Shown piece by piece: positions 7,649-17,421 of a stretch of 37,377 nt of DNA; positions within the stretch are counted from its first letter, which is position 1; each line of letters begins with the position of its first letter. Position numbers and translations under genes: made by a program. The DNA is from a virus. The notes beneath the pieces were generated by a model, which ran no database searches, was not told where the DNA came from, and worked only from the letters and a program-made list of their open reading frames with translations. Where the stretch lies: the IMG/VR virus record IMGVR_UViG_3300048908_000085, positions 1 to 37,377 of that record; one strand, 5' to 3'.

Positions 7649-7725
7649 CCCGCTTCTTTCAGGACTAATACCGATTAACAGCCCGCTCTATGATCCCTAG
7701 CTGGCACACAAGAGAGGGAGCTGCT

Positions 7726-8367
7726 GTGAAATTTGAAATCAAGAACCGTCGTACAGGCGAGGTCATGTTCGCTGTTGACATGCCAGACGGCACCAAGGAC
7801 CCAGAGCGCTGGGCGCTGGTGATTGCTGGTCACAGGGGCGATAGGCAAAGCCCATACCTTATGGGGACTGACTTGCGCGAAGCTGATTTGCGCGGGGCGG
7901 ACTTGCGCAAAGCGAGGTTGATACGCGTAGACCTACGAGGCGCGGATTTGAGCGGGGCTGATCTTCGGCGAGCCAATTTAGCTTTAGCTGACCTTCGCGG
8001 CGCGTCTCTGTGTGATGCCGATTTGCGTGGGGCGCGCTTGCGGAAAGCTGACCTACGTGGTGCGCTTCTACGAGGTGCCAATCTGGGCGATTTGTCTTGC
8101 ATGCTCGACACGATTGGCAACATGAACGAAGTAAAGAGCATCCGGTGCGACAAGTGGGCGGTCACCTACACCGCGACTCACATGCAGATCGGTAGCCAGT
8201 ATCACAGCCTGGAACGGTGGTGGGCTTTCACTGACAAGCAAATCGATGCCATGGGATTTACGGTATTGGACTGGTGGCGTAGGTGGAAACCTGTGCTGCA
8301 AACAATCATTGCCATGGCACCGGGCGGCTATCCCTGGTGGGAAAAAGACGGACCTGATACCGATTAA
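7726..8367 (+). CDS. Pentapeptide-repeat protein, copy 1
   Basis: A 213-residue product from the GTG at 7726 with AGGGAG upstream; this start aligns with that of copy 2 ([10 protein letters not shown] versus K-R-E-I-K-N-R-W-T-G). About 15 A(D/N)LRG-type pentapeptides occupy the middle and should form a right-handed quadrilateral beta helix. A conserved C-terminal domain follows, with [18 protein letters not shown] and a WKPVL motif. Some pentapeptide proteins mimic DNA and protect or inhibit gyrase; that role is not shown here. The repeats are diverged at DNA level, unlike copy 2. Confidence 0.85.
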
Positions 8368-8383
8368 CAGAGAGAGGGAACCG

Positions 8384-9022
8384 ATGAAGCGCGAGATAAA
8401 AAACAGATGGACTGGCGCCGTGCTGTTCACGGCTGATGTGCCCGAAGGCACCGAGAGCGGCATGGTCGCCCGCGTGGCGCTGGAGCAGGCCGTGGAAGCT
8501 CGTGCCAACCTGGGCGGTGCCGACCTGCGCGGTGCCGACCTGCGCGATGCCTACCTGCGCGGTGCCGACCTGCGCGGTGCCGACCTGCGCGATGCCTACC
8601 TGGGCGGTGCCGACCTGCGCGGTGCCGACCTGCGCGGTGCCGACCTGCGCGATGCCTACCTGGGCGGTGCCGACCTGCGCGATGCCTACCTGCGCGGTGC
8701 CGACCTGCGCGGTGCCGACCTGCGCGATGCCTACCTGGGCGAACTGCGCAATATCTGGGGCGCCAGCGGCAACCTGCGCGAGATCAAGGCCATCCAGTGC
8801 GATACGTGGCCGGTCACTTACACCGCTACCCACATGCAGATCGGCTGCCAGTTCCACGGACTGGAGCGCTGGTGGGCGTTCACCGATGAGCAGATCGCCC
8901 GTATGGATTCGTTGGCGCTGGAATGGTGGCAGAAGTGGAAACCTGTGCTGCGCACGATCATCACCATGTCGCCGGCTGTTCCTGGTGGCGAGAAGCCTGC
9001 TGAGGATTCACATACCGATTAA
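8384..9022 (+). CDS. Pentapeptide-repeat protein, copy 2
   Basis: A 212-residue paralogue of the preceding gene, 16 nt downstream, with an AGAGGGA ribosome binding site. It has 16 pentapeptides drawn from only a few units ([20 protein letters not shown]), followed by the same C-terminal domain ([30 protein letters not shown]). Copy number of the DNA repeat can change in steps of 15 bp without loss of frame. A beta-helical protein interacting with a host enzyme is the usual expectation for this family; the target is unknown. Confidence 0.85.
   Translation: MKREIKNRWTGAVLFTADVPEGTESGMVARVALEQAVEARANLGGADLRGADLRDAYLRGADLRGADLRDAYLGGADLRGADLRGADLRDAYLGGADLRDAYLRGADLRGADLRDAYLGELRNIWGASGNLREIKAIQCDTWPVTYTATHMQIGCQFHGLERWWAFTDEQIARMDSLALEWWQKWKPVLRTIITMSPAVPGGEKPAEDSHTD
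8504..8743 (+). repeat. 15-bp tandem repeat with a 45-bp higher-order period
   Basis: Sixteen 15-bp units of the type GCCGACCTGCGCGGT, ordered mostly as triplets that form a 45-bp period. They encode the pentapeptides of copy 2. Near-identity of units contrasts with the diverged array in copy 1 and indicates recent expansion or conversion. Confidence 0.9.
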
Positions 9023-9035
9023 CAAGGAGAACAAG

Positions 9036-9377
9036 ATGCCGACTCTTCGATTCGAGGGCTACTCGGACGACACCTTTGGCGAAGTCCTCTATACGAAAGA
9101 CGACTTCGACAACTGCGCCAGCGGCGACCCAATTGAATATCTAGTCCTGAATCCGCGCAACGGGGATGGCGTTGTCGTCACTGGCCAGTACTGCCCCGGT
9201 ATGTCGGGCAGTTGGATGATCGGCGTGGCTAACTACGACCCCGATCTTGAAGACAAAGACTTCCCACGCTGGCCGATGAAGCTGGTTCCCCAGGACTACA
9301 GGAACGGCTTTCAGCCATCGCTCGAAATCGAAGCGCCGGAAGGTGTCGAGGTGAAATGCCTGACCCGCGGCGAATAG
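9036..9377 (+). CDS. Hypothetical protein, 113 aa
   Basis: ATG start with AAGGAG upstream and the third 13-bp repeat just before it. The product (MPTLRFEGYSDDTFGEVLYT at the start) is acidic with scattered aromatics, G-Q-Y-C-P-G-M-S-G-S-W in the middle and a proline-containing end. It looks like a small globular alpha/beta protein; no family recognised. It is the last gene before the structured non-coding stretch. Confidence 0.6.
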   Translation: MPTLRFEGYSDDTFGEVLYTKDDFDNCASGDPIEYLVLNPRNGDGVVVTGQYCPGMSGSWMIGVANYDPDLEDKDFPRWPMKLVPQDYRNGFQPSLEIEAPEGVEVKCLTRGE

Positions 9378-9497
9378 TAGTCCCTCCCCGCCTTCCAAGC
9401 CCAGCATCAATACCGCTCCGGATGCATACGGACGTGACGATGCTGGTGCCGTGAAGGTAGGAGTGCAGTACCTGACCCGGGCCAGGTTAAGCCCGGG

Positions 9498-9641
9498 ATC
9501 CTCATCAGACGGAACCCTGTAAGTAATGCAGCGCTTTGGCAACGCTGTATCTGACTTCATGTTTATACACGTGTGAAAACCTACGTCTAGGGTACGAAAA
9601 ACCGGGGCCTTACACCGGGCGGGGTTTCGTCTGATGAGGGT
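9498..9641 (+). ncRNA. Domain A of the structured RNA: 23-bp helix closing a multiway junction
   Basis: Bases 9498-9520 pair with 9619-9641 without interruption (23 pairs, four of them G-U). Inside are hairpins at 9526-9550 (eight pairs, loop of nine), 9556-9577 (seven pairs, three G-U), 9580-9591 (CCTA/TAGG) and 9602-9618 (CCGG/CCGG); the last abuts the closing helix. Confidence 0.6.
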
Positions 9642-9743
9642 AAAGCGCAGCCCAGCGCAAGCGCGGGAGCAGGTGCAGATGGCCCGTTCGATTCGGCCTA
9701 CCGCGTATGGGAATAGCCCTCATGACACCCCGGAAAGACGGGG

Positions 9744-9909
9744 ATCCTCAACCGAAGGGCAGACGGATGTGGCGTATCCGTGCGGCACGCTGAGTGCCGC
9801 GGCATGCCCCGAGGCTTGGCCGCTTGATCCGCCCCGCGACGGCGGGGATACACAGCGGTTTCAAGTTCATGCCTTTGCTGGTTCGACTCCAGCCCCTTCG
9901 GTTGAGGGT
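9744..9909 (+). ncRNA. Domain C of the structured RNA: tRNA-like five-way junction
   Basis: A 16-pair closing helix (9744-9759 with 9894-9909, one G-U) encloses ACGGAT/ATCCGT (9763-9781), GCGGCAC/GTGCCGC (9782-9800), a compound arm starting with GGCATG/CATGCC (9801-9806 with 9868-9873) and containing 9820-9824/9854-9858 and CCCCGC/GCGGGG (9832-9847), then GCTGG-TTCGACT-CCAGC (9877-9893). The last matches the T-arm consensus and directly abuts the closing helix, as T-arm and acceptor do in tRNA. It has no anticodon-like seven-base loop in the expected place. Confidence 0.6.
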
Positions 9910-10030
9910 AAGCAGTACCGCCCAGGCGATGGGCAGCGGGCTAGAAGTGGATCCACCCGTGCTAGGCAGTCTTACTACGCAAGCCGGATTCGTACCCGGC
10001 ACCCTCTTCATATACCTGATTGGAGATTAC

Positions 10031-10438
10031 ATGAACTCCCCTATCAAGCTGCCGCCGCTTCCCCAGGTGCCATGGCATCAGTTTGGCGGAGTGTGCGCCG
10101 ATTCGGTTGCCGCTGAGGCAATCAAGAACTATGCCACTGACTACGCCGAACAAGCTGCACGTGAAGCATTGGCGGTCTCGAATGGAGTGGATCTTCGGCC
10201 CATATTGGCGGACTTGCTGGCCTATGTTGACCTCAACACTTGCACACATGAAAACCGCCATAAGGCCGGCACGCTGTGGACTATCTGCGACGACTGCGGA
10301 CGCAAATGGGCCGCCGACCGAAATCCGTACAAGCGTCACCAAGATGCGCCGGCAGTTGCAGCCGCCCGCGCTGCCCTGGAGACTGCCCCTCCCAAGGAGA
10401 ACAACCATGCTGAAGGTGCTGATCAAGAACCTACTTAG
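10031..10438 (+). CDS. Hypothetical protein with a zinc-ribbon-like motif, 135 aa
   Basis: ATG at 10031 with TGGAGA upstream, immediately after the structured RNA. The N-terminus is proline-rich (MNSPIKLPPLPQVPWHQFGG), followed by an alanine-rich helix. A C-x-H and I-C-D-D-C-G-R-K-W-A pair at about 82-105 suggests a small metal-binding ribbon. Such proteins recur in early regions of betaproteobacterial phages without assigned function. Confidence 0.6.
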   Translation: MNSPIKLPPLPQVPWHQFGGVCADSVAAEAIKNYATDYAEQAAREALAVSNGVDLRPILADLLAYVDLNTCTHENRHKAGTLWTICDDCGRKWAADRNPYKRHQDAPAVAAARAALETAPPKENNHAEGADQEPT

Positions 10439-16276: not shown

Positions 16277-16618
16277 ATGCTCAACGTCGCTGAAACTGCC
16301 GCCGCCCTGGGGGTGGCGCAGCGAACCGTCTATGATCTGGCCGCCCCAGGTGGCCCAATCCCGTGCCACCGCATCGGGCGCCGAATCCTTTTCTCTCAGT
16401 CAGACCTGGCGGAGTACCTAGCATCATGCCGATATACCGAGATAAAACGCGCGGTTGCCTCGTCTTTGAATTCGACCGTCTCATTGAAGGAAACCGGGTC
16501 CGCGCTCGAAAAGCTCTTCCAAAGTCGTGGAGTAAAGCCCAAGCTGACGCCTACGACCGCCAAGAGTCGGCGCGACTCTACGCGCTTGCAACTCGTGTCG
16601 AACGCCCGCAATTCCTGA
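16277..16618 (+). CDS. xis: Excisionase-type helix-turn-helix protein
   Basis: A 113-residue frame with GGAGG before the ATG. The first 50 residues (NVAETAAALGVAQRTVYDLA, then CHRIGRRILFSQSDLAEYL) form a MerR/AlpA-like winged helix of the kind used by phage excisionases to bend attL/attR DNA. The last 60 residues lie in the 193-nt overlap with the integrase gene and are Ser/Thr/Lys-rich without recognisable fold. Position directly upstream of int supports the call; a role as AlpA-like activator is an alternative. Confidence 0.75.
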   Translation: MLNVAETAAALGVAQRTVYDLAAPGGPIPCHRIGRRILFSQSDLAEYLASCRYTEIKRAVASSLNSTVSLKETGSALEKLFQSRGVKPKLTPTTAKSRRDSTRLQLVSNARNS

Positions 16619-17421
16619 TTGAGGATGCCGTAGCCATCTACGTCAAGGAGCGGGTTGGCAAGCTGAAATCCGGGGACAACATAGTCCGAGAGCTGGCCCA
16701 GATGATGTGGGCCTACAAGGACAAGCCCATGGGCGCCCTACCGGATGTCTGCCGAGAGTATGCCGAAAAGGCCCTACATGAGCAGACTGGGGAACCTCTG
16801 TCGCCAGCTACCAAGCGAAATCGCATCCGGTATCTGACCAGTGCCTGCCGCTGGGGGTGGAAACGCCATGGGATGCACGACCGGGACCCGGCTGAACGGG
16901 TAATCGCTCCAGAGGTAAGGAACGAACGCCGGCACTACGTTGACCGCGCTGGCATGCTGGCCATCGCCCGGGCCTGCAAGTGCAGGAAGTCACGAGCAGC
17001 TATCCGTATCGCCTTCTATAGTGGGATGCGCCTGAGCGAGGTTTTGGAGGCCCAGCGGGTAGACGGGATGTTCCTGCTGGAAGACACCAAGAACGGCGAG
17101 CCTCGCCATGTCCCGATGCACCCGAAGATACGAGCCGCGGCCAAAGTATCGGCGCGCAACAAGTGGAACGTGTCCAAGGAATTCAAGAAGGCCGCCATCG
17201 CAGTAGGGATGGGCCATCTGCGCTTTCACGACCTGCGGCATAGTGCCGCCAGCGCCATGATCAACGCCAACGTGAACCTGTACACAGTAGGTGCGGTCCT
17301 GGGGCACAAGTCTGCGGCCAGCACCAAGCGCTACAGTCATCTAGCGACTGAGTCGATCAAACAAGCACTCGGGGAGATTGGCAAAAAATCCCCCACGCAA
17401 AAGAAAGCGCGGGTTGCGTAA
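16426..17421 (+). CDS. int: Tyrosine-type site-specific integrase
   Basis: A 331-residue protein from the ATG at 16426 (a longer form from 16363 is less likely). The arm-binding N-terminus is MPIYRDKTRGCLVFEFDRL; the catalytic domain shows SGMRLSEV (first Arg), HDLRHSAAS (His-x-x-Arg), LGHKS (second His) and TKRYSHL (Tyr nucleophile). It recombines attP, located just downstream, with a host tRNA gene. The xis frame overlaps its start extensively, so the two are probably translationally linked. Confidence 0.93.
   Translation: MPIYRDKTRGCLVFEFDRLIEGNRVRARKALPKSWSKAQADAYDRQESARLYALATRVERPQFLIEDAVAIYVKERVGKLKSGDNIVRELAQMMWAYKDKPMGALPDVCREYAEKALHEQTGEPLSPATKRNRIRYLTSACRWGWKRHGMHDRDPAERVIAPEVRNERRHYVDRAGMLAIARACKCRKSRAAIRIAFYSGMRLSEVLEAQRVDGMFLLEDTKNGEPRHVPMHPKIRAAAKVSARNKWNVSKEFKKAAIAVGMGHLRFHDLRHSAASAMINANVNLYTVGAVLGHKSAASTKRYSHLATESIKQALGEIGKKSPTQKKARVA

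Follow-up and report, generated by a model that had tools for sequence, protein, structure and literature searches.

The element at 9744–9909 of the window (the whole stretch of DNA analysed, a 37,377-base IMG/VR virus record) is a Type I RNA module coupled to a Type II module, and the non-coding gap in which it lies (9378–10030, approximately 650 nt) is a mosaic of two alternating, swappable module types of which 9744–9909 is one Type I piece. We consider it probable that this locus is transcribed from the + strand as a modular RNA in which neighbouring modules exchange a shared strand, a T-arm serves as a structural elbow and the variable inserts act in trans.

Organisation of the mosaic RNA locus

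The record represents a temperate, podovirus-like phage of the P22-like kind, encoding a P22-type portal, terminase, integrase, an Erf-type annealing protein and a single-strand-binding-protein-like ORF. The gap is preceded by a small ORF (9036–9377) and followed by an ATG at 10031. Neither a sigma-70-like promoter nor a terminator was found in a scan of 9000–10100. Two ORFs (9634–10116 and 9794–10438) cross the structured region; a protein-coding reading was rejected, the likely gene start being the conserved leader with the ATG at 10031. Further upstream (7690–9377), a pentapeptide-repeat ORF (7690–8367) is followed by an ORF in another frame (8436–9377) with an artefactual keratin-like match.

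A Type I module consists of hairpin H0, a long closing helix of some 14–22 bp, whose strands are called a and b, and inner arms. A Type II module consists of P1, a two-base linker, H1 (D-arm-like), a variable insert, H2 (T-arm-like) and P1' flush on H2. In the window the order is Type I-b, Type II-like, Type I-a and Type II, with the following features:

9385–9462, + strand: module A, a conserved leader hairpin opening the locus on its 5' side; 92–97% identity in contigs L025, L032, L033 and L034
9476–9497, + strand: hairpin H0, CCCGGG...CCCGGG, directly adjoining the 5' strand of Type I-b; seen in the fold, with analogues before Type I modules in L025, L033 and L188
9498–9641, + strand: Type I-b; 22-bp closing helix 9498–9519/9620–9641, H1 loop CTTTGGCAA, H2 CCGG-GGCCTTACA-CCGG
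9634–9723, + strand: Type II-like module no. 1, which is divergent and has an indistinct H2; T-arm-like hairpin in the insert
9681–9698, + strand: this T-arm-like hairpin, GGCCCG-TTCGATT-CGGCC with one bulged C, read from the sequence
9728–9743, + strand: hairpin H0, CCCCG-GAAAGA-CGGGG, abutting the 9744–9909 module; identical or nearly so in L100, L154, L117, L137 and L073
9744–9909, + strand: Type I-a, a five-way junction with a 16-bp closing helix and four arms; seen in the fold and in the homologue L025
9763–9769/9775–9781, + strand: H1 arm in the D-arm position, 7 bp, loop TGGCG (containing GG and kept in L025)
9782–9788/9794–9800, + strand: second arm in the anticodon-arm position, 7 bp, 5-nt loop GCTGA, hence no anticodon loop
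9801–9873, + strand: long interrupted arm in the variable-arm position
9877–9881/9889–9893, + strand: T-arm GCTGG-TTCGACT-CCAGC, its 3' strand flush with 9894 of the closing helix
9904–9909, + strand: shared strand GAGGGT, part of both the outer I-a closing helix and the 5' strand of the next P1
9904–10006, + strand: Type II module no. 2; P1 9904–9909/10001–10006, H1 9920–9934 (GCCC-AGGCGAT-GGGC), insert 9935–9982
9983–10000, + strand: H2 of Type II no. 2, GCCGG-ATTCGTAC-CCGGC, flush on P1'
10007–10033, + strand: conserved leader TTCATATACCTGATTGGAGATTAC with the ATG of the next ORF at 10031; common to L025 and L031–L034

The mosaic nature of the locus is evident from its relatives. L025 matches the window at 9385–9462 and at 9733–10054 with unrelated sequence between the two, and the six contigs compared (window, L025, L031/L026, L032, L033 and L034) have the 5' hairpin and/or the 3' leader in common, with differing modules between them. 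The H2 motif of Type I-b is present in 12 viral contigs, and the 3' strand of that module is overlapped by the P1 5' strand of the Type II-like module that follows. A search for the leader motif in 85,000 bacterial genomes returned only five unrelated chance matches. In an even sample of 299 genomes of one phylum, only two weak chance matches were obtained. The hairpin TGACACCCCGGAAAGACGGGGA (9724–9743) appears as a constant joint between units and recurs in unrelated phages, partly just after Type II modules. Two further features were noted at L025:5653–5842 and upstream of module A in L025 and L033: just upstream of the RNA locus, both relatives carry a gene 3' end resembling a diversity-generating-retroelement variable protein, and L025 has an RT-15 RNA (163 bits; Rfam RF03018). 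The gene upstream of the RNA locus is a different one in the window phage.

A five-way junction with a genuine T-arm

The minimum free energy (MFE) fold of 9734–9919 is the five-way junction, at -96.3 kcal/mol, and is identical to the centroid; dinucleotide shuffles of the same segment reached -73.4 +/- 4.6 kcal/mol (z -4.99), none of 200 being equally good. The initial annotation had described a T-arm abutting the closing helix as in tRNA, with a loop that fits TTCRANY, and the MFE fold bears out both points at 9877–9893, where the loop TTCGACT is carried by a 5-bp stem with the G53–C61 pair. Across the whole window and both strands, 0.11 T-arms of this strictness (5 bp, TTCRANY loop, G-C closing pair) would be expected. 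The 16 pairs ascribed to the closing helix do form, but its Watson-Crick part comprises only 14 (9746–9759/9894–9907), the others being U·G (the wobble 9745 T·9908 G) and A-U (9744 A–9909 T). Similarly, the three further arms are present, although their sizes, given as 6, 7 and 6+5+6 pairs, required correction: the first arm has 7 bp, and the long arm comprises four segments of six pairs each (9801–9806/9868–9873, 9813–9818/9862–9867, 9819–9824/9854–9859 and 9832–9837/9842–9847). The statement that the element is not a tRNA and lacks an anticodon loop agrees with the searches, as ARAGORN made no tRNA or tmRNA call in the window, Rfam returned nothing above cut-off and the loop of the second arm has 5 nt; the closing helix, moreover, continues into TAAG and has no CCA-ready 3' end. 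The candidate identity of an ordinary tRNA or tmRNA was rejected on the negative ARAGORN and Rfam results.

Two pattern scans retrieved a single I-a homologue, in L025 (about 965–1126), and a search of phage records retrieved none. Over 162 aligned bases the two elements differ by five substitutions, all of which lie inside helices and preserve pairing (four C-G to U-G and one G-U to A-U), while on the - strand each of the five breaks one pair in one of the two phages. That all five preserve pairing on the + strand only supports a functional + strand RNA at 9744–9909; as two sequences cannot yield compensatory changes, this comparison amounts to moderate evidence of selection on I-a.

These substitutions also bear on the idea that the element is a relic, i.e. 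a captured tRNA, or the 3' part of one such as an attachment-site copy, decaying in non-functional spacer. Degenerate tRNA-like units do occur in related phages, which often carry tRNAs: L033:11429–11505 retains a canonical D-arm and T-arm with bases missing between acceptor and D-arm (15.8 bits as tRNA-Sec, sub-threshold), and a unit in L031 scores 24.5 bits as tRNA-Sec, again sub-threshold. However, the five substitutions leave intact the T-arm, the 14-bp helix and every inner helix, and the scaffold is constant over more than 100 phage loci. The integrase gene (16363–17421) lies 6.5 kb away, giving no sign of a link to attP, and an attachment-site copy was rejected for this reason. We regard decay of a captured tRNA as quite improbable.

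A strand shared by adjacent modules

The closing helix of 9744–9909 is not a private acceptor. The hexamer GAGGGT (9904–9909) pairs either with 9744–9749, within the I-a closing helix, or with 10001–10006, as P1 of Type II; the outer six closing-helix pairs thus use the 5' strand of the next P1, and the two helices are mutually exclusive there. The arrangement recurs elsewhere: an upstream complement overlapping P1 was found at a score of at least 12 in 35 of 101 Type II elements as against 2 of 300 mismatched controls, and at a score of at least 14 in 27 elements as against none of the controls. In a third of Type II RNAs, therefore, the preceding Type I helix uses a P1 strand and the helices compete. 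As the sequences involved differ widely among phages, the overlap is kept either by selection or by the way in which the units are built; recombination between similar ends could have produced the contested strand b as a side effect, and it concerns 35 of the 101 elements, not all.

Mutually exclusive a:b and b:c helices are attenuator-like, and the modules stop 24 nt before the ATG with the conserved leader between, as would suit a cis-acting leader, namely a tRNA-like or attenuator-type 5'UTR governing antitermination or translation of the operon from 10031. Many Type II elements indeed lie in leaders of early or late operons. Against this, no U-tract terminator is near in the window, elements are also located downstream of tRNAs and opposite to adjacent genes, and hypervariable inserts are unexpected for a cis switch, which makes a cis-acting role unlikely.

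A widespread phage RNA: the constant frame and variable middle of Type II

Type II RNAs are widespread among phages but not listed in Rfam; their frame is fixed, and their middle differs from one phage to the next. Its H2 motif GCCGGAGATCAGCNCCGGC matches at least 120 IMG/VR stretches; a 55-nt scaffold query matched 226 of 50,697 phage records (including P1, P7, HK629, PY54, PAJU2 and Bas79), and among 5,426 complete E. coli genomes a 59-nt scaffold query matched 1,022, some of the matches lying on phage-plasmids of roughly 96 kb. The element of HK620 is situated between Q and the holin gene, inside the annotated pR'-tQ leader. Canonical Type II RNAs matched no Rfam family, and Rfam searches of the window, its relatives and HK620-type loci retrieved only real tRNAs, the RT-15 RNA of L025 and a sub-threshold STnc100 in a P1-like plasmid. 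A literature search with the motif sequences found no relevant paper.

In an alignment of 30 diverse members, 95.8% of the cells were paired and 85 cells were double-changed, as against 26 in shuffles (0/500); when the alignment was slid by one base the covariation signal collapsed. Most of the variation sits in P1, and the invariance of the H2 stem in this alignment is uninformative because H2 was the search motif. A test without selection on P1 gave 6.7 of 7 P1 pairs, compared to 4.5 (maximum 4.9) for swapped partners. The loops of H1 and H2 are complementary (GCTGAT:ATCAGC), forming a kissing contact of which both sides change together in L093 and L106; a C-G to G-C exchange in this contact occurs in two rows of the alignment. 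In the module syntenic between the window and L025, GCTGAT:ATCAGC is replaced by GCGA:TCGY (AGGCGAT with ATTCGTAC or ATTCGCAC), and the kissing contact of the window has only 4 bp. The insert is hypervariable, with 103 distinct sequences of 12–165 nt among 106 elements. For these short elements a six-frame openness check, in which 30 of the 106 were closed in all six frames, was uninformative.

A Type II covariance model scored HK620, HK633, ZC03, CSP3, PAJU2, Bas79 and others at 46–80 bits. Run unfiltered on the window, it gave weak matches, the best at 9909–10008 (14.7 bits, E 0.027) and the second-best at 9634–9723 (13.1 bits, E 0.083); both are sites that had been picked by eye beforehand, and Type II no. 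2 is syntenic with the Type II module of L034, which scores 51.6 bits.

Likeness to tRNA and possible processing

The order and spacing of Type II parts match a tRNA in which the anticodon and variable arms have been replaced: a stem, 2 nt, a 4–5-bp arm with GG in its loop, an insert, a 5-bp arm flush on the stem and a loop-loop contact. The likeness is one of plan and does not make Type II a tRNA. The tRNA-like reading of 9744–9909, already supported by its T-arm geometry, is strengthened by the neighbouring Type II modules because these have the tRNA order of parts. True T-arms were found in 5 of 102 Type II inserts, with 0.03 expected per shuffle; within the 260 nt preceding Type II they were found in 3 of 91 cases as against 1.2% of random stretches, which is too weak for enrichment. 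In phage P1, three Type I/II units come after tRNA-Asn and tRNA-Thr, in front of ban and downstream of the C1-controlled ban promoters. The first of the Type I units holds a T-loop hairpin (AGGG-TTCGAAT-CCCT) within a helix of approximately 17 bp, so that 9744–9909 is not unique in kind. In the P1 record (NC_005856.1, 69472–70041), the genes plp and upl have been placed on the - strand over the + strand units, and these ORFs may be spurious. L163 has a Type II element (H1 near oriented position 533) in whose hypervariable insert ARAGORN calls a tRNA-Pro.

The true T-arm geometry and the enrichment of T-arms in Type II inserts would also suit a processing element, where T-arm and helix would be recognised like a tRNA by RNase P, RNase Z or a tRNA-modifying enzyme and the array cut by tRNA punctuation. 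Type II elements lie in or beside tRNA genes in P1, ZC03 and ST16-OXA48phi5.2, ARAGORN calls a tRNA within about 400 nt of 10 of 101 elements, and a precedent exists in the phage C4 antisense RNA, an RNase P substrate. RNase P, however, normally measures 12 bp, and the 16-bp helix and 5-bp T-arm make a stack of 21 bp, far beyond this ruler. A canonical T-arm is missing from most modules of this class, and neither a CCA nor a conserved cleavage site is present. Processing is accordingly given only a minor share of our confidence.

Comparison with known RNAs

The closest known plan is that of STnc100 (RF02076), whose 7-bp P1, AAU linker, H1, variable middle and H2 (CCGGG/CCCGG) flush on P1' follow the order of parts in Type II. 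Its H1 loop UGUGC can pair with GCAC of H2, a loop complementarity as in Type II, and in Klebsiella phages it too combines constant ends with a variable middle. It occurs in late regions of phages, and the Type II model gave 19 bits on the STnc100-like unit of P1. The plan, seen via the sub-threshold match in the P1-like plasmid, is also that of the relatives' Type II modules and of window 9904–10006. In contrast, the constant letters of H1, H2 and the kissing loops are different, and the STnc100 model had no match at E 10 in the window and five relatives and none in HK620, CSP3 or KO-TP1. This likeness of plan, together with the absence of a model match in the window, places Type II as a new form of STnc100's kind. 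At two STnc100 loci no Type I partner with a shared b strand (long complement) was found. STnc100 has been detected as RNA in vesicles (PMC12370729), and the PasD sRNAs are related to it (PMC13192938). A paper on the anti-phage sRNA svsR yielded no link to STnc100 or tRNA.

The I-a module has the same order as a class II tRNA (acceptor, D-like arm, second arm, long third arm and flush T-arm with TTCRANY), yet differs in its 16-bp acceptor, its 73-nt third arm and the lack of a 7-nt anticodon loop and CCA. The best Rfam match was the tymovirus-type tRNA-like 3' structure (RF00233), a non-significant 16.8 bits (E 0.69; cut-off 40 bits), from which 9744–9909 differs in being internal, lacking a tRNA-like 3' end and belonging to a DNA phage. 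GOLLD and ROOL are large structured phage non-coding RNAs, sometimes found near tRNAs; each is one large conserved fold, whereas the present locus is a mosaic of units of ~100–170 nt, and Rfam gave no match to either in the window at gathering score or in HK620-type loci.

Proposed mechanism

In the reading we favour, each unit would combine a Type I module (closing helix a:b and inner arms) with a Type II module (P1 b:c, kissing H1 and H2, and insert). Assuming that the locus is transcribed in the window phage, Type I would fold first, after which strand c would contest b and Type II would form by strand exchange. At 9744–9909 the true T-arm takes the slot held by H2 in other modules and most likely acts as a structural elbow, in which its T-loop would contact the H1 loop, with its GG, much as the T- and D-loops of a tRNA meet; the two loops are no Watson-Crick match, and the contact is proposed by analogy with tRNA. 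The constant frames would hold the RNA together and the variable inserts would carry what it acts on, a view of the insert as effector that is suggested by the similar-looking prophage sRNA STnc100. The RNA is most likely trans-acting or defence-facing.

Implications for phage biology

More tentatively, and with rather less confidence than in the mechanism for this locus, phages of the Pseudomonadota may possess a large unrecognised class of modular RNAs, in which a tRNA-shaped frame (covarying P1 and kissing analogues of the D- and T-arms) holds hypervariable inserts, some with true T-arms, that would serve as diversified effectors or decoys against the RNA machinery of the host or of rival phages, with a strand shared with the preceding module that switches helices; 9744–9909 would be the variant with a genuine T-arm elbow. 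Type II, absent from Rfam, occurs in roughly one in five complete E. coli genomes as well as in long-studied phages (P1, P7, HK620 and HK629). An insert that is replaced almost wholly from phage to phage, within a fixed and strongly covarying frame, is what an arms race would be expected to produce, and this pattern is directly testable in laboratory phages. The findings also suggest that STnc100 and PasD, so far treated as distinct sRNAs, could be members of one much larger superfamily, and that the 'empty' space around phage tRNA arrays is partly filled by tRNA-like RNA.
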